From contig CAOKHZ010000013.1 of assembly GCA_948468385.1 (NCBI GenBank), forward strand, positions 1 through 64,000: a stretch of DNA of 64,000 nucleotides. Reading direction: 5' to 3'. Position 1 is the first letter of the stretch, and each line of letters opens with the position of its first letter. Under the pieces are notes generated by a model, which was given only the letters and a program-made list of their open reading frames with translations, was not told the origin of the DNA and did not search any database. The stretch is from an uncultured Faecalicatena sp. Its GTDB lineage: Bacteria > Bacillota > Clostridia > Lachnospirales > Lachnospiraceae. A program made the position numbers and the translations under genes. This document shows positions 31,124-47,303 of this stretch, in pieces.

Positions 31124-32401
31124 ATGAACGTATATAATTTCATAGATTTGTTCGCGGGTTGCGGCGGGTTGAGCGAGGGGTTTTACCGTCAAGGGTTTCA
31201 TGCGCTCGCCCATGTCGAGATTGACCCGACCGCTTGTCGGACGTTAAGGACGAGGATGAAGCATTACGGATATGGAGACGCGGACGCGGCGGTACTTGAG
31301 ATGGACATCACGCGTGACGACGTCATTGAAAAAATAGAGGAAGCGGTGCGGGGGCGCGAGGTGGATCTGATCATAGGAGGTCCCCCTTGTCAGGCCTATT
31401 CCAGCCTCGGCAGGGCGAAGGACGACAATGGCATGCAGGATGATCCGAGAAATTATTTGTTTGAGAGTTATGTCAAGGTATTGAATCATTATAGGCCGAA
31501 GTTTTTTGTCTTTGAAAATGTCACGGGCATGCTGAACGCGCGGGTGAACGGGAAGCATATTGTCAATCGAATCGTGGCGGCATTGGGGGAAAACTACAAG
31601 GTGAAGTTCGATCCGAAAATGATGGTGCTTAATTCCGTCAATTATGGGGTGCCGCAGATTCGCAAGAGGGTCATCATCATGGGCGTGCGAAGGGACGTTG
31701 GCTTGGAACCCGAGGAATTGTACGCGGGCATCCTAAAGACGCATTATGGCCCGGAAGAGGAGTCGGCTTGTGAGAATGGAGCTGACGGAGTTTGTAGTTT
31801 GGACGGTTCACACGAGGGCGAAGAAAAGCTGAAGAGGTTTGTCACGGTGCAAGACGCGATTGGAGAATTGCCCGCGCTGCGTCCGGGACAAGGCGAGGCG
31901 ATTGTCACGTTTGAGTCAAAGAGGGATAATGAATTTTTGAAAAGAATCAGGAAGGAAGAGGACAAGGTACTAAGAGATCATGTTGCCCGCAACCATAACG
32001 AGCGTGACGTGGAGCGGTATACGGCCATGAGCGCGAATCACTGGACGTTTCAGGAACTTTTGGAGAGGAGGCCGGACCTTCGGCATGTAAAGCAGCGGGT
32101 GTTTGGAAACAGTTACGTGGTGCAGTGGTGGGATTTGCCATCCAAGACCATTATCGCGCATTTATATAAGGACGGGAACCAGTTTATACATCCGGACAGC
32201 TCGCAGGGGAGAACCTTCACGGTGAGGGAGGCCGCCAGGCTTCAATCGTTTCCGGATGATTTTATATTTGAGGGGCCGCGGACGGAGCAGTTCAAGCAGG
32301 TCGGTAACGCGGTGCCGCCGTTGTTCGCGGAGGCCATTGCCAAATGCTTGAAGGAAAAGCTGGATTCCCTGGAAATGACGGAGGAGGAAAATGATTTTTA
32401 A
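31124..32401 (+). CDS. DNA (cytosine-5)-methyltransferase, first of a pair
   Basis: A 425-residue C5 methyltransferase that protects host DNA from the restriction proteins encoded downstream. Motif I is FIDLFAGCGGLSEGF, motif IV GGPPCQAYSS carries the catalytic C89, motif VI is FVFENVTGM, motif VIII is QIRKRVIIMGV, and motifs IX and X are TVREAARLQSFPDD and QVGNAVPP. The target-recognition region lies between VIII and IX (about 190-340). The ATG at 31124 has GGAG nine bases upstream. It overlaps the second methyltransferase gene by 11 bases. Two different C5 methyltransferases in tandem are typical of systems with asymmetric sites (LlaJI) or of BsuMI. Confidence 0.95.
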   Translation: MNVYNFIDLFAGCGGLSEGFYRQGFHALAHVEIDPTACRTLRTRMKHYGYGDADAAVLEMDITRDDVIEKIEEAVRGREVDLIIGGPPCQAYSSLGRAKDDNGMQDDPRNYLFESYVKVLNHYRPKFFVFENVTGMLNARVNGKHIVNRIVAALGENYKVKFDPKMMVLNSVNYGVPQIRKRVIIMGVRRDVGLEPEELYAGILKTHYGPEEESACENGADGVCSLDGSHEGEEKLKRFVTVQDAIGELPALRPGQGEAIVTFESKRDNEFLKRIRKEEDKVLRDHVARNHNERDVERYTAMSANHWTFQELLERRPDLRHVKQRVFGNSYVVQWWDLPSKTIIAHLYKDGNQFIHPDSSQGRTFTVREAARLQSFPDDFIFEGPRTEQFKQVGNAVPPLFAEAIAKCLKEKLDSLEMTEEENDF

Positions 32402-33947
32402 ATCAGTCAGCAGTTTGAACGGCAAGGCAGAAAAGTCATTTTTTTTGGAACAGATACAAGTATACCGAAGGTTGGTGGAAGTGTTTTGCGAGAGGCATGG
32501 GGCAAGGACGCATGCAGATGTCGTGTCGTCGGAGTTCGTGTCGGAATTAAAAGCGATTGGCGTGATTGCGGATGAGGCGGAGCTGCCAGAGTTAAAGTCG
32601 GTGCTGGGAAAGGAATATGGAAAGTTTGCGGAAGCGGTAAATTTTGTTATCACTCATAAGGCGGAAATCTTCGAGGGGGAAGCACGCCCGGGTGAAGCCG
32701 GCGATTTGCTTGGCAAACTTTATAATTCGAAGAGGAAGGAAATTCAAGAATCGGCGGCCAAGAGGCATGGCCTGACCCTGGTGGATTTTTTTTGCGGTGC
32801 AGGTGGTTTGAGCCTGGGATTCGTGCAAGAAGGCTTTCAGGTCAAGTTGGCCAATGACATTGAGGATGTTTGCATTCAAACGTATAAGTATAATCATCCC
32901 GAACTGCCAACGGACAAGGTGGTCACGGGGGACATACGGGAACTCGTGAAGCATTTGGCGGACTATGTTGATAAAGAAGCATGGGAGGACGTCGACGTGG
33001 TGACGGGCGGTCCGCCTTGTCAGGGGTTTAGCGAGGCGAACCGGCAGCGGGTGATTGACGACCCGCGTAATGAACTATACAAATATTTCGTGCGGGCCGT
33101 GGAAATCATTGCCCCCAAAATCGTTGTCATGGAAAACGTGAAGGGGATGCTTAAGGTGGCCGACCAGGTGGTGGAGGATTATGAATGCCTGCGAATCCAT
33201 AGGGGGGAGAAGGTGTATTCCTACAAGGTAAAATACCAGATTTTGAACTCCTTGGATTTTTCTGTTGCCCAAAGCCGGGAAAGATTGATATACATTGCCG
33301 TGAGAAATGACGTGACGGAAGAAAAGGGCGTGCGGCCGGAGGATGTATTTGAACGGATAAAAGAGACGTGCGAGGGCAATCGGACGTTTGTTTTGATGGA
33401 TGCTTTGCATGACATCAAGCCGCTGGAAGCCCCCAGAATCAAGAATATGAACGAGGTGGACAGTGATACGACGGGGAAGAAGATAGACGTTAATGCTTAT
33501 GCGGAGAATGAAAACGAATATTTGAGGCTGATTAACGGGGAACGGGCCATTCCCTATGTGCTTAACCATAAGGCCAGGTATTTGAGCGACGTGAATTATG
33601 AGATTTATAAGCGGCTTTCGCAGGGAGATGACGCGACGGACGAAAAAATCAAAGACATCATGCCCTATGCCCATCGAAATCATTGTTTTAAGGACAAGTA
33701 TTACAAGCTGATTGCCAACAAGCCGTGCAGGACGATTACCGCGCACCTGAAAATGGACTGCCATTCCCATATACATCCGTACCAGGTACGGGCACTCACG
33801 CCGAGGGAGGCCGCGAGGGTGCAGTCGTTTCCCGACGATTATCTATTTTGGGGGGCGTATTTGAAGACATACATGCAGATTGGCAACGCGGTTCCGACGA
33901 GGATGGCCAGGGGGATTGCACGGGTGATTAAGGAATGTTTGGAGTGA
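32391..33947 (+). CDS. DNA (cytosine-5)-methyltransferase, second of a pair, with N-terminal extension
   Basis: A 518-residue C5 methyltransferase. The first 120 residues are an extra helical domain (FFLEQIQVYRRLVEVFCERHG ... EFVSELKAIGVIADEAEL) before motif I, LVDFFCGAGGLSLGF. Motif IV GGPPCQGFSE has the catalytic C210, followed by VVMENVKGM, QSRERLIYIAV, LTPREAARVQSFPDD and QIGNAVPTRMA. It differs clearly from the first methyltransferase, so the two probably modify different strands or sequences. The gene starts within the end of the first one. A/T content rises sharply just downstream, at the ATPase gene. Confidence 0.95.
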   Translation: MIFKSVSSLNGKAEKSFFLEQIQVYRRLVEVFCERHGARTHADVVSSEFVSELKAIGVIADEAELPELKSVLGKEYGKFAEAVNFVITHKAEIFEGEARPGEAGDLLGKLYNSKRKEIQESAAKRHGLTLVDFFCGAGGLSLGFVQEGFQVKLANDIEDVCIQTYKYNHPELPTDKVVTGDIRELVKHLADYVDKEAWEDVDVVTGGPPCQGFSEANRQRVIDDPRNELYKYFVRAVEIIAPKIVVMENVKGMLKVADQVVEDYECLRIHRGEKVYSYKVKYQILNSLDFSVAQSRERLIYIAVRNDVTEEKGVRPEDVFERIKETCEGNRTFVLMDALHDIKPLEAPRIKNMNEVDSDTTGKKIDVNAYAENENEYLRLINGERAIPYVLNHKARYLSDVNYEIYKRLSQGDDATDEKIKDIMPYAHRNHCFKDKYYKLIANKPCRTITAHLKMDCHSHIHPYQVRALTPREAARVQSFPDDYLFWGAYLKTYMQIGNAVPTRMARGIARVIKECLE

Positions 33948-33959
33948 GGGGGATGATAG

Positions 33960-33988
33960 GTGACTTGTTGGTTTAGGTATAGTATAAA
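33960..33988 (+). promoter_or_regulatory. Candidate internal promoter before the ATPase gene
   Basis: GTGACT (33960-33965), a 17-base spacer and TATAAA (33983-33988) lie between the second methyltransferase and the ATPase gene. The next bases, AGAAGGCGAGG (33989-33999), serve as ribosome-binding site and recur before the gene at 35983. Confidence 0.5.
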
Positions 33989-34006
33989 AGAAGGCGAGGT
34001 GCGAAT

Positions 34007-35335
34007 ATGAATAAAGAATGGGTGTTACATGTCGAGAATTTTGCAAAAATAAAAACGGCAGATGTCAAAATAGCGCCATTAATATGCTTCGTTGGTGAAA
34101 ATAATAGTGGAAAGAGTTATCTCATGAGCCTATTGTGGGGGGTTTTGACGCTGGGGAAGGAGATCTTTCCGAAATTTCCGTCCGAGGCGAAATCCTATAA
34201 AAAATGTGAAAAGTGGTTGAGTGAGAATATAAATAAAAATACGGAGTTGTCCAGTGAAATCATTACAAACTATATTTCGTGGTTTAACGAGCTTTTGGCA
34301 AATAATAAAAAAGAACTTTTGAATAAAATTTTCAATTATGATGTTGATGCTGAAAGAATTGAAATTTTAAGTTATCGTCGCAAGAAAAAATTTGAAATTT
34401 GTTGGGAAGAGGTGGCCGAACGCTATTCCGTGACGGAAACGTATGTGAAATTTCCCAAGCAGGAAATCTATAGTCGGGAACAACTTCTTAGAATGAATGC
34501 CTATATTTGCTGGAACATTTTGATGGAGGGAATTGCTGAACCGCTTTATACGCCGATTGTAAAAGGAAGACGGATGGGAGAACCGGTGTATTTGCCTGCT
34601 TCGCGCACTGGTTTTATGCTGACATATCCACAATTAATTGAAAATTCTTTACAAGTTAGTTTTGCACCGGCATCAAGGGAAAATGCCAGCGCGCTTACAC
34701 TGCCTTATGTTGATTTTCTTCAACTAATTACGAAGTTTGAGACGAGGGGGAAATTGAGTAAGTGGAAAAAGGAAGTGGTTCAATATATGGAAGAAGAGAT
34801 GACGAAAGGAAGCGTGTCCATAAAGAAAGACATGATTCCTATCATCAAGTACCAACCAAGCGGGATGGAAAAAGAGATTCCGCTGCATGTGGCTTCTTCC
34901 ATTGTTGCGGAAATATCGCCATTGTTATTGTTGCTTAAGTCAGATATTAATTTCAAAACACTAATCATTGAAGAACCGGAGGCACATTTGCATCCAGAGT
35001 TGCAACAGAAAATGGCGAGGTTGATGATTAACCTGGTCAAATATGGAATCCCGGTATGGATTACGACCCACAGTGACACGATTCTTCAGCATATAAATAA
35101 TATGCTGAAGTTGAAAAGACATGGAAATGCGGTTGAATTAATGAAAGAATATGGATATTCAAAAGTGGACTTACTGGATCCCGATGAAGTATCCATGTAT
35201 CAATTTATGCCCTGCAAAGCAGGAAAGTCGCAATTGGAGCAATTGGGATCTACGAAATATGGATTTGTCGTACCGACTTTTAATGACGCATTGGAAAACA
35301 TTGTAAGGGAAGTGTATGCGTTTCAGGAGGACTGA
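34007..35335 (+). CDS. AAA/ABC-type ATPase of the OLD/AAA_21 class, embedded in the RM operon
   Basis: A 442-residue ATPase. Walker A GENNSGKSYL is at residues 30-39, with a long helical insertion (about 55-250) and then Walker B LIIEEPEAHLHPELQ near residue 319, followed by ITTHSDTILQHINN. This is the pattern of ABC-like ATPases such as OLD, RecF-like and several anti-phage proteins. It lacks the TOPRIM nuclease of OLD; a nuclease-like protein is encoded two bases downstream instead. The DNA is visibly A/T-richer than the flanking methyltransferase and McrB genes. I infer a sensor or motor that licenses the adjacent effector, inserted into a LlaJI-like operon. Confidence 0.85.
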   Translation: MNKEWVLHVENFAKIKTADVKIAPLICFVGENNSGKSYLMSLLWGVLTLGKEIFPKFPSEAKSYKKCEKWLSENINKNTELSSEIITNYISWFNELLANNKKELLNKIFNYDVDAERIEILSYRRKKKFEICWEEVAERYSVTETYVKFPKQEIYSREQLLRMNAYICWNILMEGIAEPLYTPIVKGRRMGEPVYLPASRTGFMLTYPQLIENSLQVSFAPASRENASALTLPYVDFLQLITKFETRGKLSKWKKEVVQYMEEEMTKGSVSIKKDMIPIIKYQPSGMEKEIPLHVASSIVAEISPLLLLLKSDINFKTLIIEEPEAHLHPELQQKMARLMINLVKYGIPVWITTHSDTILQHINNMLKLKRHGNAVELMKEYGYSKVDLLDPDEVSMYQFMPCKAGKSQLEQLGSTKYGFVVPTFNDALENIVREVYAFQED

Positions 35336-35337
35336 TA

Positions 35338-35964
35338 ATGTACAGTAAGAGAATCCAGTATGCAATAGATCATTTTATCATGGAGCAATATTTTCTGCCG
35401 ATGAGCAGGCAATATCATTTGCGGGAGGAAAGGGAGTCGGGTAAAAGTGACCTGAACGTGACCATTGAAAATGAGAATCTTTGCATTTATGATTTCGACG
35501 ACAAGAAAAGGTGTGGCTTTCTCAGACCGGACAAAAAGTTTGGCATGCAAAAAAGCGTTGACCATATTCTGTTTGAAAAATGGTCGGACGATTGGAGGTT
35601 GCATCTGATAGAAATGAAAAGTGGAGTCGGGTGTAAGACGTGGCAAGAATCTATCAAGCCAAAAGTTCGGACAAGCTATTTTACGGCGTTGGCGATAGCG
35701 AGTTTTTTGGGAATTCGGATTTCTGAAGTGATAGCTTATACCACGTATGAGGAAGAGCGATTTGGCGATATCAATAATGGTACGAATCCAAGGATGATGA
35801 TGCCATCTTTAGGTCGGCCTGCGAGGAATCCTGTTACGGATGAATGGGAAAAGAATCAGATGTTTTTGAATGTGGGTGAGGAAATGAGGATTCCGCACAA
35901 GAGAATACGGATGGTAAAGAATGGTATGACGGGCGTGTTGGAGGGGGCGTTGGTAATAGAGTGA
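35338..35964 (+). CDS. PD-(D/E)XK nuclease-like partner of the ATPase
   Basis: A 208-residue protein two bases after the ATPase stop. The segment VDHILFEKWSDDWRLHLIEMKSGVG places D75, E92 and K94 in the D...E-x-K arrangement of the restriction-endonuclease fold. Downstream, KVRTSYFTALAIASFLGI forms the helix expected after the core strand, and a basic IPHKRIRMVK lies near the end. I do not recognise a named family. Two-gene pairs of an ABC-like ATPase and a small nuclease (for example Septu or Gabija, with different effectors) act against phage, so an abortive or DNA-degrading effector is plausible. The nuclease call is inferred from one motif. Confidence 0.6.
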   Translation: MYSKRIQYAIDHFIMEQYFLPMSRQYHLREERESGKSDLNVTIENENLCIYDFDDKKRCGFLRPDKKFGMQKSVDHILFEKWSDDWRLHLIEMKSGVGCKTWQESIKPKVRTSYFTALAIASFLGIRISEVIAYTTYEEERFGDINNGTNPRMMMPSLGRPARNPVTDEWEKNQMFLNVGEEMRIPHKRIRMVKNGMTGVLEGALVIE

Positions 35965-35982
35965 TAGAAGGCGAGGGCTTAC

Positions 35983-36609
35983 ATGAAGGTCGTACAAGTG
36001 ATAAAGAAATTGAACAATACCGAGTTGGGGAAGGGCGGTACGCATGACTCCTATGTTTTAGTTCCCAGCGAATTGGACATTACGGATTTGTTCGTGAAGC
36101 TGAACGAACCGGTCACGTTTGTTGACAAAAGCACGGCGGAGGAAGTGGTCGTTCGAAGCACGTATGGCCGGGAAAAGCGGATCGTCGGTCTGGGCCAGTA
36201 TTATCGAAGCCATGACTTGTCCGCCGGGGATGAAATCTTGTTTGAGCGGCGGGTAGTTGGGAAAAGGGCGAGACATTTTATCAGTGTGAAAAAGAATGAA
36301 GATGTATTGGCGTTTCAGAAATCAAAAAATGGTTTTGAGATATTGACGCCGGAGCGGATTTCCAGGTTTCAAAATATTGTGACGGATTCGGGCGAGAGCC
36401 TGGAAATTCGTTTTCTCAATACAAAAAAGAAACGGAACGATTCACCGGAGGCAACATCATTTTATGACATAATCGTGTCGGGGAAAAGCCTTATGGGTTC
36501 TTTTTCCGGAAATAGTTTGGGGGAAATCGTCGTACAGAACCATAAAATCGTGGTAACGCCCTTTTATGGTTGGAAAAAATATGTATTCGGGACGGAGGAA
36601 GATACATGA
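35983..36609 (+). CDS. Candidate sequence-recognition subunit of the LlaJI-like system
   Basis: A 208-residue protein without enzyme motifs. Its first 110 residues (NNTELGKGGTHDSYVLVP, then GLGQYYRSHDLSAGDEILFERR) look beta-rich and recall B3-like DNA-binding modules of EcoRII, BfiI and the N-terminal domain of LlaJI.R1, as far as I can judge by eye. In LlaJI that module is fused to the McrB-type NTPase; here a stand-alone gene overlaps the NTPase gene by four bases (ATGA). I infer a split specificity subunit. The leader AGAAGGCGAGG (35966-35976) is the same 11 bases found before the ATPase gene. Confidence 0.5.
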   Translation: MKVVQVIKKLNNTELGKGGTHDSYVLVPSELDITDLFVKLNEPVTFVDKSTAEEVVVRSTYGREKRIVGLGQYYRSHDLSAGDEILFERRVVGKRARHFISVKKNEDVLAFQKSKNGFEILTPERISRFQNIVTDSGESLEIRFLNTKKKRNDSPEATSFYDIIVSGKSLMGSFSGNSLGEIVVQNHKIVVTPFYGWKKYVFGTEEDT

Positions 36610-38009
36610 AAAGTGACGAGGGGAAAAACTATATTATGTCAATAGACTCGTTTGTCGATACGTTTTCGGTGCTGGACGAGTCCCAGACGATTTCTTTTTC
36701 CATGGAGATGCAAAAGAAGGAGAAAGGTCTTTGGGAATCGTATTTTTCTGCCCTCTGGGAGGGGGATCGCGTGCTCGTGTACCGAAGGAAACCGTGCGCG
36801 GGGATTCATGTCGTGCTTGAAGTCATGGGGGTTAGCGGGAAGCAGATTAAGTTCCAGAAGAAGCTGGGAGTGGCGAAGGGATATGAAATAACCGCCAAGG
36901 ACGAGGAAGAAATCGACGGGGACTTTGAAAAAGACGTGCTGGTAGAGATTACGGATGCTGTTTACGAGAAAATTTGCCGGGCGTTGATTGAGGAGTTTGT
37001 GAAAAGCGATTTGGAGACGGAAGAGACGGCGGACGCGAAAGGACAAGAGGAGAAGGCGGGGCAAACGCCGTGGGAGACGATACCACGGGTCACGGGGGCG
37101 GAAAACGTGCTTCTCTACGGCGTGCCGGGCGCGGGCAAGAGCCATGAGATTCGGACGAATTATTGTGATGACTCCACAAAAATGGAACGGGTCGTGTTTC
37201 ATCCGGATTACACGTATTCGGATTTCGTGGGGCAGATTTTGCCAAAGGTGAGGGACGGACAGCTGAAGTACGTCTTCACGCCGGGACCGTTTACCCGAAT
37301 GCTGAAAAAGGCGTGGGAGAATCCGGGGGAGGAACATTATCTGATTATCGAGGAAATCAATCGGGGCAACGCCCCGGCCATTTTCGGGGAAATCTTTCAA
37401 TTGCTCGACAGAAAGACGGAGGACGATGGCAAGTATGATGAGTCTGAATTCGGCGAGAGCGAGTATGGGATTTCTAACGAGGAGGTGGCGGGCATCGTGT
37501 ACGGGGACGGGCGGCGGGAGGTTCGCATTCCGTCCAACATGTGGGTTCTGGCCACGATGAATACTGCGGATCAGAACGTGTTCACGATGGACACGGCATT
37601 TTGGCGCAGGTGGAACATGCGCCATATTAAGAATGACGTGCACGCGGCTTTGCATGCGGGTGAGAGAATCGAGGGCTCCGAAGTGACCTGGGGCAATTTC
37701 GCGACAGTGATTAACGACATGATATTGGAATTGGGTGCCGACGTGGGCGGCTTCGAGGACAAGAGGCTGGGGGCGTATTTCGTTAGGAAGAGAGAACTTT
37801 TGGAAGACAAATTCCCGGAAAAAGTATTGAAATATTTGTGGGAGGACGCTTTCAAGATGGAGCGCGAGGCGGTGTTTGACGAAAAATTCAAGTCATTGGA
37901 CCAGGTGATCGAGGCGTTTGAGGATGTCGTATGGGACGTGTCGGATGCGTCGCGGGACGCGCTGGAAGCGGTGCTGCGACCGGAGGTTTACCGGAAAATG
38001 AGGGGATGA
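36606..38009 (+). CDS. McrB-type AAA+ NTPase (LlaJI.R1-like restriction subunit)
   Basis: A 467-residue motor protein. Walker A GVPGAGKSH is at 172-180, followed by VVFHPDYTYSDFVGQILPKV, Walker B LIIEEINRGNAPAIFGEIFQLLDR near 245 and the sensor MNTADQNVFTMDTAFWRRW. These are the hallmarks of McrB family NTPases, which hydrolyse GTP and translocate on DNA to activate the McrC nuclease. The first 130 residues (ESYFSALWEGDRVLVYRRKPCAGIHVVLEVMG) resemble EVE/PUA-like modules that can read modified bases. An acidic linker (138-160) joins the domains. The ATG at 36606 has GGAGG upstream and overlaps the previous gene by four bases. Confidence 0.92.
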   Translation: MKSDEGKNYIMSIDSFVDTFSVLDESQTISFSMEMQKKEKGLWESYFSALWEGDRVLVYRRKPCAGIHVVLEVMGVSGKQIKFQKKLGVAKGYEITAKDEEEIDGDFEKDVLVEITDAVYEKICRALIEEFVKSDLETEETADAKGQEEKAGQTPWETIPRVTGAENVLLYGVPGAGKSHEIRTNYCDDSTKMERVVFHPDYTYSDFVGQILPKVRDGQLKYVFTPGPFTRMLKKAWENPGEEHYLIIEEINRGNAPAIFGEIFQLLDRKTEDDGKYDESEFGESEYGISNEEVAGIVYGDGRREVRIPSNMWVLATMNTADQNVFTMDTAFWRRWNMRHIKNDVHAALHAGERIEGSEVTWGNFATVINDMILELGADVGGFEDKRLGAYFVRKRELLEDKFPEKVLKYLWEDAFKMEREAVFDEKFKSLDQVIEAFEDVVWDVSDASRDALEAVLRPEVYRKMRG

Positions 38010-38034
38010 CGCGGGAAGGAATGCGGCGTAGGGC

Positions 38035-39372
38035 ATGGAGCGTCCGTTCGCAAGGGACGTGTTGGAGGAAGGACGTTTGGAGAGACATGGAATCAGGGAA
38101 AAATGCAGGGTAAACACGAATCGGGACTCGGACATGTTTGTCGGCATCATGTGCGAGCATGGTGACATCAGCGTGAATTTTCCCCTTGGTTTTCGCATTT
38201 CCGAGGATGAGAGGGGCTTGCGAAAAGACATTCTGTTGTTGATTCGTACGATTCAATCGACGACGGCCCGTAGGGATTCGCAAGTTTTGAAGCCGGGGCA
38301 GACATATGACCAGACGGCGTTTCCCATTCAGGCCTATATGCATGTGATTTCGGATTATTATGCCAGAGGCTATTATAAGGAGCAGGAAACGAGGCATGCC
38401 GTGGCCGGTCGGGGAAAGATTGACTGGAACCGGACGATAAAGACGCAAAAAGTATATGTAAGCGGTGCCGAAAGTAATTCCAGGCCGGGGTGTTTTGTAG
38501 ACGAAGACAGTGTGAAATTTGGAGAGACGCGTGGAAAAGGGACGTTACAGGCGGCGTTTTACTTGGATTTTGTGATGCGAAAAAGCGCGATAAAGGAGAA
38601 TGAGTTGATTACGCTCATACACAAATATTGCGTGTATGAAAGTTTTGAGAAAATAGGGTGGCTGTATGCAAACGGCATGCCCGCAAAGCCGGGAATCAAG
38701 TATAATGAAACGTTGTTCAAGAGAGTCGTCCGTGACAAGTTGCGAAATACGTTCAATGATAGGAATCGGGCATTGTTTCGCAGCATGCTGGCAATCCTTG
38801 AATATGAGGGGAATTCGGACGGCGGCAGGGATTACCGTTATGGGACGTGGCGTTTTGAGTACGTTTGGGAGGCGTTGATTGACCGGGTGTACGGAATCGA
38901 AGAGAAGTCAGTGTATTTCCCGAAGACGAGGTGGAAAATCAAAAATACGGAATACGCCAACTCCCATCTGGAGCCGGACACGATTATGATTTGTTTCGGA
39001 GCCGTGTACATTTTGGATGCCAAGTATTATAAGTATGGGGCGACGAGGCGACCTTTGGATCTTCCGCAGTCGGCATCCATCAACAAACAGATTACTTATG
39101 GGGAATATGTGGCCACGCAGGAAAAATTCAAGGAACTTCACGGGGAAGGGTTCAAGGTATATAATGCTTTTCTGATGCCGTTTGCAGCGGAGGATGAAAC
39201 GTGCCCGGTGGTAAAAATCGGCGAGGCTCATGCGGACTGGAAAAGCGGCAATCATACTTACGAGACCGTGCATGGCATATTGGTCGACGTAAAGCACCTG
39301 ATGAAAATCGGAACGAGAGAGGACGAGGAGGAAATCGAGAGGTTGGCGGGGATGATAAATGGGGAAAGGTAA
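38035..39372 (+). CDS. McrC/LlaJI-family restriction endonuclease subunit
   Basis: A 445-residue nuclease subunit. The C-terminal domain contains LEPDTIMICFGAVYILDAKYYKYG, giving D315 and D328-A-K330 of the PD-(D/E)XK core, the hallmark of LlaJI.R2/McrC nucleases. The N-terminal region (FVGIMCEHGDISVNFPLGFRISED) is the part that contacts the McrB ring in this family. The start is uncertain: ATG 38035 is the most upstream possible, since an in-frame stop lies at 38029, but ATG 38134 is also possible. With the McrB-like protein and two methyltransferases it completes a four-part LlaJI/BsuMI-type restriction-modification system. Confidence 0.88.
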   Translation: MERPFARDVLEEGRLERHGIREKCRVNTNRDSDMFVGIMCEHGDISVNFPLGFRISEDERGLRKDILLLIRTIQSTTARRDSQVLKPGQTYDQTAFPIQAYMHVISDYYARGYYKEQETRHAVAGRGKIDWNRTIKTQKVYVSGAESNSRPGCFVDEDSVKFGETRGKGTLQAAFYLDFVMRKSAIKENELITLIHKYCVYESFEKIGWLYANGMPAKPGIKYNETLFKRVVRDKLRNTFNDRNRALFRSMLAILEYEGNSDGGRDYRYGTWRFEYVWEALIDRVYGIEEKSVYFPKTRWKIKNTEYANSHLEPDTIMICFGAVYILDAKYYKYGATRRPLDLPQSASINKQITYGEYVATQEKFKELHGEGFKVYNAFLMPFAAEDETCPVVKIGEAHADWKSGNHTYETVHGILVDVKHLMKIGTREDEEEIERLAGMINGER

Positions 39373-39421
39373 GGCGTAAAAGAAGTTTTGAAGAAATATG
39401 AAATAGAAAGTGGGTGAAGCT

Positions 39422-40390
39422 ATGGAAGCGGAACAAGAATACTATATAAGATTAATTGAACGCTTACGACTTTTACCAGAAGAAAATGAATGGTTGGAAT
39501 ACAAAGTGAATAATTATGAGCCGGAATTGATTGGAGAGTATATTTCGGCATTAAGCAATTCGGCGGCTATTTGTGATAAAGAGAAAGCATATATCTTGTG
39601 GGGAATTGATGACAAGACACATGAGATTAAGGGGACGACTTTCGCACCTAAGAAAGTTAAAAAAGGAAACGAGGAAATAGAAAATTGGCTGGCTGGAGGA
39701 CTGAAGCCAAGGGTGGATTTTAAATTTATTGAAGTTGAAACAGATAGAGGAAAAGTTGTTATTATGGAGATTCTGGCAGCGGTCAATAGCCCTATTAGCT
39801 TTAAGGGGACAGAATATATTCGTGTTGGCTCATACAAAAAGAAGTTAAAGGATTTTCCAGAAAAGGAACGAAAATTATGGCTTTCTTTTGAGCAAAAACC
39901 GTTTGAATTACGTTCTGCAATAGAAAATGTCACTGCTGCCAAGGTGACGGAACTTTTGGATTGTGCGTCTTATTATACTTTGATGAAACTACCATTGCCA
40001 AGTAATCGGGACGCAATTATCCACAATATGATGGATGAGCAGTTCATCAAGGAAATGGATAATGGAAATTACGCCATTACAAACATGGGAGCATTGCTAT
40101 TGGCAAAAGATTTGAACGCCTTTACACATTTGAAGAGGAAAGCAATTCGAGTAATCAGATATAAAGGAAACGGACGGACAAATGCAATCCGGGAACAAAT
40201 ATTTACAAAGGGATATGCTATTCAGTTTGATGATATTACAGATTATATTATGACATTGATCCCGCAGGAGGAAAAGAATAAAGCGATTGTTTCTAGAATC
40301 ATCAAAGATACAAGGGAAGCAGGATATATAAAATTATCAGACGAAAATGCTTCTCCCAAAATGAGAAGGTATGTTCCATATTGGGCATGA
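39422..40390 (+). pseudogene. AlbA_2 (Schlafen-like) ATP-binding protein with in-frame internal deletion
   Basis: A 322-residue remnant of the large family of AlbA_2-domain proteins (usually 450-550 residues). The N-terminal domain is intact: ENEWLEYKVNNYEPELIGEYISALSNSAA, AYILWGIDDKTHEIKGT, VIMEILAAVNSPISFKG and EYIRVGSYKKKLKDFPEKE. The middle helices are present too. After FDDITDYIMTLIPQ the protein jumps directly to the family's end, KAIVSRIIKDTREAGYIKL and RRYVPYWA. The 150 or so residues that normally form the GHKL-like ATPase part are missing without loss of frame. It may be inactive or may retain nucleic-acid binding through AlbA_2. It follows the restriction genes. Confidence 0.7.
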
Positions 40391-40512: not shown

Positions 40513-40633
40513 TAGTATGGATTGGAAGCGGGAGATGACGAGAATATCATAGAAAACGTATGGGTTAAAAAGGTCAATGAATTTTGGCGTTGAATAAATG
40601 CTTACTGGCAAATATAGAAAGGAGACGACACAA

Positions 40634-42169
40634 ATGATTACGATTCAGGAGTACAAGGGGCATATCCGCAACTGGGCGGCATTATGCGAGGAGTTGGGGG
40701 TGGACAAGGCGCTTCCGAGGAAGGAGCGGGAGTGCGAGATTTTACTCTGTGCTTATGAGCGGTGGGGATATGACATGGCGAGCCATATTTACGGCATGTT
40801 CGCCTTTGCCATTTGGGACGAGGAGGAACAAAAGTTGTTCTGCCTGCGCGACCAGTTCGGCACGAAGCCGTTTTATTACTATGAGACGGCGGACGGAAAA
40901 TTGCTTTTTGGGACGAGCATCCGCGACATCATGGCGCAGCCGGGATTTGAAAAGCAATTGAACGAGGAAATGTTGCAATTGTACTTGAGCCTGACTTACG
41001 TGGCGGGCGAGAACACGTTTTTTAGGGGACTGAAAAAACTGTTGCCGGGGCGTTATCTGGTGTGGCAGGATGGTCGGCTTTCGATTACGCGCTACTGGAC
41101 ACCGACATTTTGTCCGGATGAAGACAAGTCGCTTGAGGATTGGGCGGAGGAAATCCATACCACGCTTGCGCAGGTCATGCCCGAGGTGAAGACGGCGGAC
41201 GAGACGGCGGAGTCGTTCCTTTCCGGCGGCGTGGATTCTTCCTATGTATTGGCGATGTCCGACGTGCGAATGACGGATTCCTGCGGTTACGAGGAGGCTC
41301 GCTTTGATGAGTCGGGATTGGCGGCGCGGACGGCAGAAATCCTGGGACGAGAAAATTCACGTTGTCTGATTACGCCGGAGGAATATTTTGAAGTCGTGCC
41401 TTATGTGATGTACAATATGGAACAGCCGCTCGGGGACGCGTCGGCAATCGCGTTTGCCATTGCCTGCAGGGAGACGGCGAAGCACACGAAGCTTTGCTAT
41501 TCCGGCGAGGGGGCGGACGAATTTTTCGGCGGGTATAATATGTACCGCAACGCCGAACGATATGGGGAAAATTTGAAGACGTTTTACGTGGGCAATACCA
41601 ATATCATGAAAGAGGATGAAAAGCAGAAAATCCTCAAAAAATATGACCCGGACGTGTTGCCAATCGAGCTTGTGCGCGGCATATATGAGGAGACGGAAGG
41701 GCTTGACCCGCTGACGAAAATGTCCGACGTGGACATCCAGATTTGGCTGGAGGGCGACATTTACTTGAACGTGGACAAAATGAGCACGGCGGCCGGTTTG
41801 GAGATTCGCATGCCGCTCACCGATTTGCGGATATTTGACATCGCGTCGCGCATGCCCGCCAGATATAAGGTAAACGAGGAGCAAAACAAGGTGGCGCTGC
41901 GCACGGCGGCGGCGAAGGTGTTGCCGGAGGAAATCGCGTTCCGTAAAAAACTCGGCTTTATCGTGCCGATTCGCATCTGGATGGCGGACGAACGGTACAA
42001 CCAGGACGTGCATAAAAAGTTCCAGAGCAAGGCGGCGGAAAAATTCTTCCATCTGGAGGAAATCAACGCCATTTTGGACGATTATCTGGGCGGGAACTCG
42101 GACAACTGGCGGAAAGTGTGGACGATATACACGTTCCTCGTGTGGTATGAAATCTATTTTGGGGAGTAA
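40634..42169 (+). CDS. Asparagine-synthetase-like protein lacking the glutaminase nucleophile
   Basis: A 511-residue protein. The C-terminal synthetase domain is well preserved, with the PP-loop SFLSGGVDSSYV near residue 197, YSGEGADEFFGGYNMYR, a DKMSTAAGLEIRMPLTD segment and the end IRIWMADERYN. The N-terminal class-II glutaminase part (YERWGYDMASHIYGMFAFAIWDEEEQKLFCLRDQFGTKPFYYY) lacks the first 60 or so residues, including the Cys-2 nucleophile and the RG-D loop. The start has AAAGGAG upstream and looks genuine. The enzyme may use free ammonia or another amine, or work as an amide-forming enzyme in a pathway. It is separated from the NRPS gene by 800 bases. Confidence 0.85.
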   Translation: MITIQEYKGHIRNWAALCEELGVDKALPRKERECEILLCAYERWGYDMASHIYGMFAFAIWDEEEQKLFCLRDQFGTKPFYYYETADGKLLFGTSIRDIMAQPGFEKQLNEEMLQLYLSLTYVAGENTFFRGLKKLLPGRYLVWQDGRLSITRYWTPTFCPDEDKSLEDWAEEIHTTLAQVMPEVKTADETAESFLSGGVDSSYVLAMSDVRMTDSCGYEEARFDESGLAARTAEILGRENSRCLITPEEYFEVVPYVMYNMEQPLGDASAIAFAIACRETAKHTKLCYSGEGADEFFGGYNMYRNAERYGENLKTFYVGNTNIMKEDEKQKILKKYDPDVLPIELVRGIYEETEGLDPLTKMSDVDIQIWLEGDIYLNVDKMSTAAGLEIRMPLTDLRIFDIASRMPARYKVNEEQNKVALRTAAAKVLPEEIAFRKKLGFIVPIRIWMADERYNQDVHKKFQSKAAEKFFHLEEINAILDDYLGGNSDNWRKVWTIYTFLVWYEIYFGE

Positions 42170-42213
42170 GTAACAAAAAAATTGACTTTTCGTTGAATTT
42201 GAGCAACAATCCA

Positions 42214-42242
42214 TTGAGATTATTCGCTATGTTGCGTATAAT
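42214..42242 (+). promoter_or_regulatory. Promoter of the DUF3791 gene pair
   Basis: TTGAGA (42214-42219), a 17-base spacer and TATAAT (42237-42242). Confidence 0.75.
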
Positions 42243-42262
42243 AAAAATAGGCAGGTAATCGG

Positions 42263-42586
42263 ATTGAACTTGATATTGCATACAGTCAAGCAGAAAAGGT
42301 GCGTGCACTTGTAGAAAAGCGGCGGCACATTGAGGCAATGGTGAAATCTTTGCAGGAGGAAAAAACGATTGCAGATAAAGTATCGGAGAACCGTTCTGGC
42401 AATTACACGGGAGAATCCTACAATTTCATTTTTGGTTCCGTCGCAAATGAATTTTATGGGTCTAATCTGTATGCCCTATTGGAGCAGGAGGACACGAAAA
42501 TTTGGCATTTTAGCCCGCTTACACTTTTCAATATGTTTGATGAAGAAAAAAAGACGGGCAGCTTTGAACTGCCGGAGGAGGCTTGA
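42263..42586 (+). CDS. Uncharacterised partner of the DUF3791 protein, no standard start codon
   Basis: The reading frame is open from 42251 and reads IELDIAYSQAEKVRALVEKRRHIEAMVKSL and so on, but contains no ATG, GTG or TTG before a GTG at 42299, which lies within a conserved-looking helix. An ATT at 42263, placed well after GGCAGG, is the most natural start position. It is either a rare ATT start or a mutated ATG. The rest (SYNFIFGSVANEFYGSNLYALLEQEDTKIWHFSPL, then KKTGSFELPEEA) is protein-like but matches no domain I know. It stops two bases before the DUF3791 start, so the two form a tight pair, possibly toxin-antitoxin-like. Confidence 0.55.
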   Translation: MELDIAYSQAEKVRALVEKRRHIEAMVKSLQEEKTIADKVSENRSGNYTGESYNFIFGSVANEFYGSNLYALLEQEDTKIWHFSPLTLFNMFDEEKKTGSFELPEEA

Positions 42587-42588
42587 TT

Positions 42589-42801
42589 ATGAGTATTCAA
42601 GGCAATTTTATGATATTCTGCGCTGAACAGTACAAAATGGCAAAACACTTGACGGGCAAACAACTTGCCGAGCTTTTCACCCGTTATCGGGTATGGGAGT
42701 ATATCTACTCATGCTATGAAGCCCTGCACACAACGGGTATGAACTATATCATTGAGGATATTGACCTATATATCGAAGCACGAAAGCCCGCTATGGCTTA
42801 G
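42589..42801 (+). CDS. DUF3791 domain protein
   Basis: A 70-residue protein with the DUF3791 pattern: FMIFCAEQYKMAKHLTGKQLAELFTRYRVWEYI and SCYEALHTTGMNYIIEDIDLYI. These small proteins are common in gut Clostridia, usually next to a DUF3990 (ADP-ribosyltransferase-like) or another small protein, and are suspected to be antitoxins. GGAGGAG lies eight bases before the ATG. Its upstream partner here is not recognisably DUF3990. Confidence 0.8.
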   Translation: MSIQGNFMIFCAEQYKMAKHLTGKQLAELFTRYRVWEYIYSCYEALHTTGMNYIIEDIDLYIEARKPAMA

Positions 42802-42916
42802 AGTAGAGGCAAATTAAAATGGATATGTGTTTTATCTCCACCCCTCGAACCGACGAGATTTTTGTGTACACGGGACAGAAAGGTATATGCAGCTTATGTA
42901 GCCTGCCCCGGCGCGA

Positions 42917-42944
42917 CGAGTAGGGGAATAATCTCCCCTACTCG
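42917..42944. terminator. Hairpin between the DUF3791 and NRPS genes
   Basis: A perfect 11-base stem, CGAGTAGGGGA against TCCCCTACTCG. There is no clear T-run on either side, so termination is plausible but not certain. The two genes converge here. Confidence 0.5.
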
Positions 42945-42986
42945 ATTCCGTCCTCATTTTCTTGATCGATTAAGTGGCTTTTTCTA

Positions 42987-45900
42987 TTATACCTTAAAAT
43001 AATCAAGCTTTCGAAAATAATTTATATATCCGCTTAAATATTTTGCATCAATTTTATTCCATTCAAAATCCAGTCGTTTTAAGAACCAAACCGTAAAGTC
43101 ATTTTTGATATGGATATTGCTGTCGTATACTAACCGTCCGTGTTCGTCCATGTCGTTTTGAAACGCTTTAAAAATATATGAGGTATCGCCATTTTTAAGT
43201 GTTTCCTGCAATGCATTGTGAAATGTAGTAGCGTTAACAATTTTCATGGATATTCCAAGTTCATGCATGATTTCAAGGAAACGGTCGAAATAAATGGTTC
43301 GATTGCTGTTCAAGTGGAATATACATGGTTCATCTGCAAACTGCGCAATTTTGATGATTCCTTTAGCGGTCAAATCCACCGGTGAAAATTCAGCGTATAG
43401 CGGCCTCAGGTAATCGGGAAACAGGCCAAATTCCAACATTGCCTTTAGCCTTGTAAGAAAGGCGTTTTGCGCGTAATTTGGTTGAAATTTAAAATCCGTG
43501 GTACGATTGGTCAGGTTGCCCACGCGGATGATTTTGGCTTCCAGTCCGTCTAGCATGGCATCGTAAACTGCCTTTTCCGCTTCAAATTTACTACGGATAT
43601 ACACATTGTCCAAAGGCTGTCCGATATAGAAGGATGTCTCGCAAAACTGTTTTTCCTTTCCAGAATAATATACTGAAAAATCGTCCGCCATACTATTTCC
43701 ACTAACGCTTAGGGTTGAAATATGAATCAATTTTGCCCCGATTGTTTTGGCATAATTTGCGACATTTTTGGTTCCTTGCGTGTTGGCACGATGGAAATAA
43801 TCATATGAACCATAATGTTTGACGCTGGCGGCAGTGTGGATTACGGCTTGTACGTCTGTTGGCATGCCATTTGCCAGATTTTCCTGCTCTATATCGCCCA
43901 CGAGTGGTATGATTCGGTGATTCAATTCGGGATTGTATTTACTGTCAAAATAGTATCTTAGGATATCGTGTAACCGTTGACGATTCCGAATTAAACAGTA
44001 TATTTTGCCGGTTTCTGTTTGTAGTAATTGTTCCAGAACATGGGCGCCTAAAAATCCCGTGGCACCGGTCAGCAGGACGTTCCCGAAAGGCTTTTGGGTT
44101 GGTACAAATGTTTCGGCAACGATATTTTTCGAAAGTAAATTTTGATATTTGTTAAAATCAGAGGGCTTATAATGGACGCTCACTTTTTCACCTTGTCTTA
44201 TAAAATCACATAACGACTGTATCGTGGGATAATCGAATACATTTTGCAGGGTAAAATGAATACCCATGGCATGTGCTTGTGCAACAAATTCGATGGCCGT
44301 CAGACTGTCCCCGCCAAGTTCAAAAAAGTCGTCGGTCGTACCAACTTGCTTTATATGTAAAAGTGTTTCTGATAAGTGGCACAATTTACATTCTTGCTCC
44401 GTTACCGGTTTTACATATTCGTTTATCCGAATGGCAAAATTTGGCGTCGGTAGATTTTTCCTATCCATTTTTCCGCCCGATGTCATTGGCATGGCATCCA
44501 AACGCATAAAATAGTTTGGAACCATATATTTTGGTAGTTTTGCAGATAAATGTCCGCGCAAATTTCTTTCATCAATTACGACATTAGAAGTATAATAGCC
44601 CACAAGATATTGTCGGTTATTTTCATCACGTTTGTCCGTGACCGCCGTCAGGCTTATTCCGTCCATACTGCTCATAACGTTTTCTATTTCTTCAAGTTCG
44701 ATGCGCAGTCCACGAATTTTGACTTGCGTATCAATTCTTCCAAGGTATTCTATGTTCCCGTCCGTGCGCCAACGGGCCAGATCCCCGGTATGGTACATGG
44801 TCTTGCCGTGACGGTTTTCCTTCGTTGAGAAAGGGTTGGGAACGAATTTCTCCGCCGTCAAATCAGGGCGGTTAAGATAGCCTTTTCCCACGCCGTCTCC
44901 AGAAAGGCAAAGTTCGCCTGCCACGCCAATAGGAAGAGGCGCGTTATTTTTGTCAATTATGTAAATTTGGGTGTTGGCAATTGGCTTGCCAATGTTAATG
45001 TCTTTGTCAGTCACCTCTGAAATCGTGGACCATACGGTCGTTTCTGCCGGACCATAATTATTAAATATTTTTGCAGTGGTTTGTTTCCTTAAGTGTTTAT
45101 AAAAGGTGCTTGTTAAAGGCTCGCCGCCTAAAATAATTGCTTTAAAATTGGCAATACTCGTAAAGTTACCGCTCGAAAGAAGCATTTTTAGCTTTGTCGG
45201 AGTCGTTTCAATGATATTCGGGTGCCTTTTTTGGCATAACAATTCCAATGGTTCACCCATTGAGGCCTCCTGCTCGTTTGCAAATAAAATGGTCATTCCG
45301 CTTGTCAAAGGGATGAACAGTTCGGTAATAAACATGTCAAAAATTGTGTTCGTAATCGATAAAAATATCGTGTCGGCGGGGCTGATTATTTTATCATTTA
45401 CGTTAAAATGATTTTTGTTACAAAAATTCACCCCGTTTCGGTGGCATATGGACAATCCTTTTGGGGTACCGGTACTTCCAGATGTATATATGACATAACA
45501 CAAATCATCAGGATGATTTACACTTTCGAGATTTTCACAATTATCAGAAAAATCAAACTTTGACAAGTCAATGATTGTGTTTTTGTCGGGATCCAATTTA
45601 TCTATGGCCTCCGTCTGTACTCCCATGTTGGAAACAAGGACTATTTTTGATTTTGTGCTTTCTAATATATATTTGATTCTTTCTGTTGGATGTGTTACGT
45701 CGATGGACATAAAAGCACCACCAGCCTTTAGGATACTAAGCATTGCAACGATTACATGCCAACTTCGTCTTGCGAGGATGGGAACCACGTCGTTTGGCCT
45801 TACGCCCGCTTTCCGTAGAAAGTGCGCCAGTGAATTTGTCATTTCGTTTAATTGCCGATAGCTAAATTCTTTATCTTCAAATATTAGGGCGAGTTTGTCC

Positions 45901-47303
45901 GGCGTTTCTCGTACTTGTTCGGAAAAAAGCTCATGCATACATTTTTTTCTTGAAAAATCTATGTGCGTATCGTTAAATTCATAAATCAGTTTTTGTAATT
46001 CTTGCTTTGGAACGATACAAATATCCTTGATTGGTCGTACGGAATCCTCCGTTATCTGCTCAAGAATGTATTCCAGGCGGTCTATGATAAGTTTGATTTC
46101 TGTATTTTCTTTAAATATAGCGGTCTGGTAATCTATTGTCATAGTATATTTGTCGTCTCCATCGCGGTCATCTATATGTATGGCAAGAGGAACCTCGCTA
46201 GAGCCATTAGAGTACCACCTTGTCTCTGCATTGGTATTTGTTTTTGCATTTTGGAAACTAAATATTACGTCATATAAATTTTCCGTGAAATTTTGTTCTT
46301 CTCGTAGAAACGTCAAAATATTGGAAAAAGGATATTTTTGATGTCGGAATATGCTTATGTGTTCCCTGGTGATTTGTATTGCAAGTTCTGACACGGTTAT
46401 CGATTTTGGTAACGTTATCGTAAGCGGCATGGTGGAAATAAACATTCCGGCAATGTTTTTTTGTTTGGCATTACTGCGATTTAATACTAAAACGCCGATG
46501 GTTATGGACTTGTTTTCTGGATTGATTTTGGAAAGGTACGTTGTGATTGCCGTTTCAAATAAAACGGCAGGGGTTATGGAGTGTGTCTTGCAATAGTCTT
46601 CAATCTTTCGCTTTAAACTCCTGGGCAACGTTTCAACCATTCTTTTCGCCTCAACGGATGGCGTTGCGACAACATGTGACTTTATCAAGCTTCTTTCGGG
46701 GCAAAGGGCATATTTCTCTTCCCAATACTTTTTGTCCTTTATATATCGCTCGGAGGACAGATAAGTGTTTTCGAACTGTACATAATCCATGTAATCTGCC
46801 TTTAAAAGTACGTCATTTGTCTTGGCGGGTGACGAGTTTGCTTCTCCGGCCAGTTGGCGATATGCCACGTCAATTTGATTTGCCATTAGTCCAAATGTCC
46901 AAGCATCGGAAATCAGGTGACTTAACGTGACCAATATGCCACTTTTTTGCCCGATTTGAAATACTACAAAGCGATACATGGGGGTGTCCAAAAGTCCAAT
47001 GGATGTTTGGGCAAAGCTTTCTGCATATCGGTCAAGTTCATCCATGGATGAAAATGACATAAACGGAATGGAAGTGTCAATTTCATCGGATATATATTGC
47101 ATTGGTTCGCTTTCTTCATAAAAACGGAGACGAAGGCTGCTTTGAGATTGTATGAATTGACAAATTGCTTGTTGTAATAATGCGATATTTCTTTCTTCGT
47201 TAAAGATAATGGCACCACATTGATTGCCAATGGCCGTGTCTTCGTAATATTTTTGAAGATTCCAAATATTTTTTTGTGGCGTGGTTAAGTGAAAGTATTT
47301 CAT
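42987..47303 (-). CDS. Single-module NRPS: condensation-adenylation-carrier-reductase
   Basis: A 1438-residue synthetase. The condensation domain (1-430) has SHLISDAWTFG in place of the canonical HHxxxDG, so its first His is Ser. The adenylation domain (about 450-960) has YVIYTSGSTGTPKGL near 604, NNYGPAETTVWS and YHTGDLARW. The carrier domain has GGDSLTAIEF with the phosphopantetheine Ser near 998. The C-terminal thioester reductase begins VLLTGATGFLGAHVLEQLL near 1076, so the product leaves as an aldehyde or alcohol. The altered condensation motif suggests that domain may not form a peptide bond. No other module or phosphopantetheinyl transferase is in the window. The DNA is markedly A/T-rich, suggesting transfer. 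Confidence 0.93.
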   Translation of the reverse strand: MKYFHLTTPQKNIWNLQKYYEDTAIGNQCGAIIFNEERNIALLQQAICQFIQSQSSLRLRFYEESEPMQYISDEIDTSIPFMSFSSMDELDRYAESFAQTSIGLLDTPMYRFVVFQIGQKSGILVTLSHLISDAWTFGLMANQIDVAYRQLAGEANSSPAKTNDVLLKADYMDYVQFENTYLSSERYIKDKKYWEEKYALCPERSLIKSHVVATPSVEAKRMVETLPRSLKRKIEDYCKTHSITPAVLFETAITTYLSKINPENKSITIGVLVLNRSNAKQKNIAGMFISTMPLTITLPKSITVSELAIQITREHISIFRHQKYPFSNILTFLREEQNFTENLYDVIFSFQNAKTNTNAETRWYSNGSSEVPLAIHIDDRDGDDKYTMTIDYQTAIFKENTEIKLIIDRLEYILEQITEDSVRPIKDICIVPKQELQKLIYEFNDTHIDFSRKKCMHELFSEQVRETPDKLALIFEDKEFSYRQLNEMTNSLAHFLRKAGVRPNDVVPILARRSWHVIVAMLSILKAGGAFMSIDVTHPTERIKYILESTKSKIVLVSNMGVQTEAIDKLDPDKNTIIDLSKFDFSDNCENLESVNHPDDLCYVIYTSGSTGTPKGLSICHRNGVNFCNKNHFNVNDKIISPADTIFLSITNTIFDMFITELFIPLTSGMTILFANEQEASMGEPLELLCQKRHPNIIETTPTKLKMLLSSGNFTSIANFKAIILGGEPLTSTFYKHLRKQTTAKIFNNYGPAETTVWSTISEVTDKDINIGKPIANTQIYIIDKNNAPLPIGVAGELCLSGDGVGKGYLNRPDLTAEKFVPNPFSTKENRHGKTMYHTGDLARWRTDGNIEYLGRIDTQVKIRGLRIELEEIENVMSSMDGISLTAVTDKRDENNRQYLVGYYTSNVVIDERNLRGHLSAKLPKYMVPNYFMRLDAMPMTSGGKMDRKNLPTPNFAIRINEYVKPVTEQECKLCHLSETLLHIKQVGTTDDFFELGGDSLTAIEFVAQAHAMGIHFTLQNVFDYPTIQSLCDFIRQGEKVSVHYKPSDFNKYQNLLSKNIVAETFVPTQKPFGNVLLTGATGFLGAHVLEQLLQTETGKIYCLIRNRQRLHDILRYYFDSKYNPELNHRIIPLVGDIEQENLANGMPTDVQAVIHTAASVKHYGSYDYFHRANTQGTKNVANYAKTIGAKLIHISTLSVSGNSMADDFSVYYSGKEKQFCETSFYIGQPLDNVYIRSKFEAEKAVYDAMLDGLEAKIIRVGNLTNRTTDFKFQPNYAQNAFLTRLKAMLEFGLFPDYLRPLYAEFSPVDLTAKGIIKIAQFADEPCIFHLNSNRTIYFDRFLEIMHELGISMKIVNATTFHNALQETLKNGDTSYIFKAFQNDMDEHGRLVYDSNIHIKNDFTVWFLKRLDFEWNKIDAKYLSGYINYFRKLDYFKV

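Follow-up and report, generated by a model that had tools for sequence, protein, structure and literature searches.

Whether the seven genes at 31124..39372 of a contig from an uncultured Faecalicatena sp. form a single enlarged restriction-modification (R-M) system, or one system lodged inside another, is the question that this locus raises (assembly GCA_948468385.1, contig CAOKHZ010000013.1; the window, here and below, is the whole analyzed stretch of 64,000 nucleotides). An earlier reading made from the letters alone, the sequence-only reading, had described a LlaJI/BsuMI-like R-M locus with three extra genes between the methyltransferases and an McrBC-type pair. In this study, we show that all seven open reading frames (ORFs) are present in that order and place, open, on one strand (+) and nearly touching. 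Moreover, we argue that the likely explanation of the arrangement is the capture of a WonAB/PD-T4-4-like two-gene unit by a five-gene LlaJI-like operon at the joint between its modification and restriction genes. The features of the locus are the following:

31124..32401, + strand: M1, C5-cytosine DNA methyltransferase of 425 amino acids (aa); PF00145 3.6e-61, PCQ at 88
32391..33947, + strand: M2, C5-cytosine DNA methyltransferase, 518 aa; PF00145 1.4e-64, PCQ at 209
33948..35982, + strand: insert of 2,035 bp between the M2 stop and the gene-5 start; missing from loci L143, L122, L128 and L132
33989..33999, + strand: left copy of an 11-bp repeat, AGAAGGCGAGG, ribosome-site-like, just 5' of the ATPase gene
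34007..35335, + strand: OLD-type ABC ATPase, 442 aa, proposed sensor half of the pair; AAA_15, PD-T4-4_A
35338..35964, + strand: PD-(D/E)xK-type nuclease, 208 aa, proposed effector half of the pair; D75, E92, K94
35966..35976, + strand: right copy of the 11-bp repeat, AGAAGGCGAGG, in the leader of gene 5
35983..36609, + strand: gene 5, 208 aa, LlaJI-like operon member; homologues in the same slot in L122, L128, L132 and L143
36606..38009, + strand: R1, McrB-like AAA+ NTPase, 467 aa; AAA_5 4.7e-13 (score taken on the longer ORF 36570-38009), Walker A at 172
38035..39372, + strand: R2, McrC-like LlaJI-family nuclease, 445 aa; PF09563 107 bits; D315, D328, K330

By gene content and homology, the R-M part of the locus is a new member of the LlaJI-like group, in a five-gene form. 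Two C5 methyltransferases lie upstream, with PF00145 and PCQ in both and an 11-bp overlap between them, as the sequence-only reading had it. R1, rightly called an McrB-type NTPase there, matches PADLOC REase_II at 2.7e-92 besides AAA_5, and it adjoins R2, whose score to RE_LlaJI (PF09563) compares with a family cut-off of 23.6 and whose PD...DxK motif holds exactly the nuclease residues that had been pointed out. LlaJI of the Lactococcus plasmid pNP40 (L119) consists of two C5 methyltransferases, an McrB-like R1 and an McrC-like R2, in that order, according to its description (PMC1459862), and the M1, M2, R1 and R2 genes of the window keep this four-gene order. The window differs in its separate gene 5 and in the inserted pair, and so is not of the four-gene pNP40 type; its R1 also has a shorter N-terminus, Walker A standing at 172 versus 271 in pNP40.

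Of 392 genomes of the order, 25 have an RE_LlaJI match, and B. subtilis has a PF09563 match as well; relatives of the window R2 were found in 14 of 397 family genomes at E<=1e-30 and in 12 plasmid records. From these searches 46 other LlaJI loci were read, comprising all places from the order search other than that of the window and two weak ones (G270, G243), together with the genomes added by the family search, six virus-like contigs and three of the 12 plasmids. R1 was recognized in 44 of the 46, and 39 also have a C5 methyltransferase upstream, on the same strand and within six genes. L122, L128, L132 and the same-genus L143 have the order M1-M2-gene 5-R1-R2 in synteny with the window, M1 and M2 thus not being orphans, and these four operons differ from the window in being without the ATPase-nuclease pair. 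L122 is the closest of the LlaJI loci, with identities of 76.6, 73.3, 59.7, 59.4 and 59.6% for M1, M2, gene 5, R1 and R2, respectively; the same-genus M1 and M2 are 82.7% and 80.8% identical to those of the window. M2 and gene 5 overlap in L128, L132 and L143 and are 28 bp apart in L122. In some other LlaJI loci, extra genes of different kinds separate the methyltransferase from R1: L125 and L035 have three each, and L131 has one. The genome of the window carries a second LlaJI-like operon (L056, G000:C46), of the form M-M-R1-R2, without gene 5 and without a member of the nuclease family.

The insertion of the pair into this operon is real, precise and recent enough for an empty site to be seen. 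A search for R2 in six genomes of the window's genus gave one match, in G764; within the family sample, a seventh genome of the genus (G773) gave no R2 match at E<=1e-30. On the G764 contig (L143) the upstream genes, which include a histidine kinase gene and ABC transporter genes, are as in the window, with 69-82% DNA identity over 24.4 to 31.1 kb, and they are followed by M1, M2, gene 5, R1 and the start of R2, the pair being missing. There, a 4-bp overlap (GTGA) joins the M2 stop to the gene-5 start; in the window, the 2,035 bp with the pair come after this same M2 end, and gene 5 then continues from its start codon. Since L143, L122, L128 and L132 are all without the pair, a gain in the window's lineage is the simplest account. 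The pair was seen in a LlaJI-type operon this once only among the loci read, and its guanine-plus-cytosine (GC) content is 0.400 versus 0.467 for the window.

Elsewhere, the pair is by its distribution a free-standing family, and R-M systems of this kind do not have it as a dedicated component. A scan of a genome collection recovered a Roseburia metagenome-assembled genome (MAG) in which a nuclease 60% identical to that of the window directly follows an ATPase 69% identical to the window's, with no match to the window's R-M proteins in the flanks. A search with the single nuclease sequence found 1 of 391 class genomes, the window's own, and a nuclease profile found 9 of 397 family genomes and 2 of 299 phylum genomes (each count includes the genome of the window), together with two virus-like contigs; G765 was added from the ATPase search. 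This gave 13 pair loci besides the window (L032, L077, L078, L079, L080, L081, L083, L084, L085, L086, L087, L088 and L137), L077 being merged with the near-identical L082. In all 13 the ATPase lies directly 5' of the nuclease, and in none did the fetched flanks contain relatives of M1, M2, gene 5, R1 or R2, other R-M types not having been searched for. Some flanks are short (0.6 kb downstream in L078, 1.4 kb upstream in L081, 4.8 kb in all in L088 and 3.6 kb in L137), and the L080 contig begins inside the ATPase. Conversely, none of the 46 other LlaJI loci has a member of the nuclease family. Conservation is lowest at codon position 3, the pattern of coding genes under constraint.

These counts divide the three middle genes that the sequence-only reading had taken together. 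The ATPase and the nuclease are indeed extra, and were never seen with LlaJI-type systems elsewhere (0/46 and 0/13), a circumstance in which that reading would itself have given way; gene 5 is a regular operon member. A unit of all three middle genes was rejected, gene 5 accompanying the R-M operon and the pair not.

Relatives of the nuclease were found neither on plasmids nor on phages by protein search, and by DNA not on plasmids; those of the ATPase there were distant only. The virus-like contigs L077 and L078 carry nearly the same pair in different surroundings, that of L078 standing, on our reading of the ORFs, after phage-like late genes and an integrase-like fragment. At L089 and L090 (G771:C9 and G000:C11), in a same-genus genome and in the window's own, a more distant ATPase (25-29% identity) precedes a gene for a 227-aa partner and two more long genes; both loci adjoin a gene reading as a response regulator and may represent another ATPase-led module.

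Judged by its position and homologues, gene 5 belongs as a regular member to a five-gene subgroup of LlaJI-like operons. It was found in 3 of the 46 LlaJI loci (L122, L128, L132), always between M2 and R1, and in the same slot in L143. Among the 27 R1 proteins measured (that of the window and 26 of the 44), Walker A lies at 148-172 in the four accompanied by gene 5 and, in the other 23, at 144 (L131), 187 (L121) or 195-551; L131 has a different gene in the gene-5 slot. The short R1 N-terminus where gene 5 is present fits gene 5 as a detached part of the R1 recognition end, and we propose that it may be a detached recognition subunit of R1. The narrower idea that gene 5 is a split-off copy of the N-terminal domain that fused R1 proteins carry was left unproven, the best profile score being 5.3 bits (E 0.02), for the N-terminus of L122's own R1. 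Comparison of gene 5 with the PDB gave nothing better than E 1.6, neither Pfam nor the other family collections gave a named family above its cut-off, and no gene 5 was found in viral contigs.

With regard to the pair itself, the ATPase matches AAA_15 at 3.6e-23, PD-T4-4_A, its best PADLOC model, at 3.7e-44, and PDC-M47A at 4e-30, with GENNSGKS at 30, EEPE at 322 and H355, K36 and E322/E323 falling within these motifs. For the nuclease (35338), Pfam, PADLOC and PHROGs gave no match, and the NCBIfam one is at chance level (0.16). Its alignment of 12 rows, two of them near-identical, has D75, E92 and K94 invariant, besides the start and G35, A119 and L124. The D...ExK spacing is that of PD-(D/E)xK enzymes, and the protein is provisionally assigned to this type on that account. 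A profile of the nuclease family was run against 900 shuffles and against 376 different proteins (150-349 aa, family members among them) taken from the fetched loci. The three best non-family matches were all partners of PD-T4-4-type ATPases, at 14.1 bits (E. marmotae plasmid), 12.3 bits (Bernardetia plasmid) and 10.7 bits (the gene following a distant ATPase in L091). A third plasmid partner reached 7.1 bits, the best shuffle 8.8 and the best unrelated real protein 6.7. Models identify the E. marmotae pair as PD-T4-4, with 1.3e-262 for the ATPase and 3.1e-108 for the partner. In a profile-profile comparison, the probabilities for the three plasmid partners were no higher than 49.6, 8.9 and 8.0. 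PDC-M47B matched 1 of the 12 nucleases (1.7e-05), that of the window not being the one, and a single PDC-M47B model run against ten genomes matched no pair locus. The kinship of the nuclease to PD-T4-4_B-type partners would thus be remote and is not proven. The pair shares with PD-T4-4 and PDC-M47 an ATPase of the same kind and, with the PD-T4-4 plasmid locus L138, the gene order, and is probably a new, remote member of the WonAB/PD-T4-4-like group. PARIS was considered on account of an AriA match of 1.1e-24 and rejected, since the partner matches no TOPRIM or AriB model.

WonAB of Vibrio cholerae, of the 'OLD-ABC ATPase + novel REase' class, consists of an ABC ATPase followed by a small PD-(D/E)xK nuclease. 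In its report (PMC12137116), both genes are described as needed, ATPase and nuclease mutants as losing protection, and the effector as toxic only with an active ATPase; activation halts translation while genomic DNA is preserved, which points to rRNA or tRNA as the target. The window pair resembles this description in its ATPase-then-nuclease order, and it lies in an R-M operon whereas WonAB was found on a prophage. By analogy, we infer that the pair may act through a WonAB-type abortive mechanism.

We favor the capture of such a unit, complete in itself and probably an abortive-infection system, because the five R-M genes are conserved in loci that lack the pair, the pair is conserved in loci where no relatives of these five genes were seen, and the insertion falls at the joint. 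In this locus, M1 and M2 would methylate the R-M system's own site, gene 5 would give recognition to R1, the AAA+ motor, and R1 would bring R2 to cut unmethylated DNA. The ATPase would sense infection and license its PD-(D/E)xK partner, which would then arrest growth; the target would most likely be an RNA on which translation depends, as the discoverers of WonB suggest for that protein. The pair probably rides the R-M transcript, so that one operon would hold a first line of defense that cuts and a last line that aborts, with no direct contact between them. The two effector layers envisaged in the sequence-only reading are plausible as co-expressed neighbors; nothing shows coupling of the two.

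The junctions suggest some integration at the operon level, since the pair lies on the same strand, is inserted exactly at the stop/start joint, has no terminator-like site on that strand around it, and is followed by a gene-5 leader with an 11-mer also present in the ATPase leader. The spacings are -11 bp (M1/M2), 59 bp (M2/ATPase), 2 bp (ATPase/nuclease), 18 bp (nuclease/gene 5), -4 bp (gene 5/R1) and 25 bp (R1/R2). In the stretch from M2 to gene 5, a terminator scan gave no terminator-like match on the + strand, and a promoter scan gave none in the M2/ATPase gap. The exact 11-mer AGAAGGCGAGG occurs only twice in the window, in the leaders of the ATPase gene and gene 5; with up to one mismatch there are 4 matches, the shuffles having a mean of 1.11 and reaching 4 in 2 of 100. 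The repeat was rejected as a target duplication, both copies being ribosome-site-like and the bases common to the two flanks of the join at the empty site being the stop/start codon only; we read it as two similar leaders, though it may be due to chance.

Several observations weigh against the capture of a co-expressed WonAB/PD-T4-4-like unit. Firstly, the GC argument is weak, since in AT-richness the ATPase gene (0.386) hardly stands out from the genes at 39410 (0.371) and 42987 (0.397). Secondly, the G764 assembly that provides the same-genus empty site is 74% complete, and its locus is broken inside R2 across two contigs. Thirdly, the B-partner models, PD-T4-4_B (E<=10) and PDC-M47B, do not match the window nuclease directly, and sequence, profile and PDB comparisons found no recognizable DNA-binding domain in gene 5. 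The name 'DNA binder' given to the gene at 35983 is likewise not borne out, with no direct evidence of DNA binding in the Pfam, PDB and profile comparisons. Finally, it is by inference that the pair and the R-M genes probably share a transcript, and five + strand promoter-like matches lie inside the pair, at 34247, 34445, 35073, 35465 and 35540 (9 or 10 of 12), the whole region holding 27 such matches versus 14.5 in shuffles. These sites may drive the restriction genes, which need not rely on a single transcript.

At the contig break in R2, near window position 38750, identity to G764 leaps from 69-82% to 95-98% downstream (L144), where one piece, unlike most, stands at 82%. The jump between L143 and L144 reflects recombination or a mixed assembly.

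An unlikely alternative, and the first of three in our ranking, is that the operon position is a working link: the R-M proteins would silence the pair, and phage inhibition or failure of restriction would release it. In one form of this idea, a formerly free-living abort system, captured at the modification/restriction joint, would have come under the control of the R-M operon. PrrC of the EcoprrI locus has an ABC ATPase part and a place inside R-M genes. As in the window, a nuclease is there associated with R-M genes; a linked type I R-M enzyme keeps PrrC silent, and an anti-restriction factor of the phage sets it off (PMC2610378). The position of the pair, between M2 and gene 5 on the same strand with junctions of 59 and 18 bp, would suit such a guard. 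However, PrrC is a single-protein anticodon nuclease of a type I system, whereas the window has two proteins in a LlaJI-like operon and their relatives stand alone. The counts given above, namely no R-M relatives in the flanks of the 13 other pair loci (as said, other R-M types were not searched) and no nuclease relatives in the 46 LlaJI loci, speak against a guard, as does the same-genus locus without the pair. Furthermore, the pair has not diverged from its stand-alone relatives. The window ATPase is 65-69% identical to those of L032, L137, L077 and L083 and 57% to that of L081; the first four are 59-81% identical among themselves, so that the window ATPase gives no sign of specialization. 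A working link of the PrrC kind has no specific support.

It is also improbable, and ranked second, that the pair landed by chance as a passenger that is not usefully expressed and will decay. The single occurrence agrees with this, and elsewhere the nuclease gene is interrupted (L083) or altered at its end (L078, whose product departs from its relatives C-terminally and may be frameshifted). Against it, both genes are open, their catalytic and ATPase motifs are intact, and the insertion leaves the M2 stop, the gene-5 start codon and a ribosome-site-like leader before gene 5. That the nuclease is a toxin and the ATPase an antitoxin stabilizing the R-M locus by addiction is very improbable, for all that the genes are two, adjacent and also present in virus-like contigs (L077, L078), since the overproduced WonAB effector is toxic, by its report (PMC12137116), only with the ATPase present and active.

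The R-M system and the pair are each of a known kind, and the new part is the nesting of one in the other; no published account of such nesting was recognized in a literature search that covered few subscription papers. Under the capture of the pair by the operon, the locus would be a layered defense caught assembling, with the operon present with and without its guest in one genus and the guest alone elsewhere, and it would let one test whether layered defenses need contact or just shared expression. Gene 5 would mark the five-gene LlaJI-like subgroup, and the pair would add a WonAB/PD-T4-4-like branch, seen in the window's phylum (the only phylum sampled) and in virus-like contigs.

Directly after R2, the window has a Schlafen/AlbA_2 gene (39410-40390; PF04326 9.9e-19; GC 0.371), which is missing from L144, where R2 is followed by an asparagine synthase gene; it seems to be another insertion, on the far side of the operon. 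The stretch 40598-47303 of the window holds an asparagine-synthase-like gene (PF00733 1.1e-63) and, on the other strand, a gene for a 1,438-aa protein whose sequence resembles a single-module non-ribosomal peptide synthetase with a reductase end.

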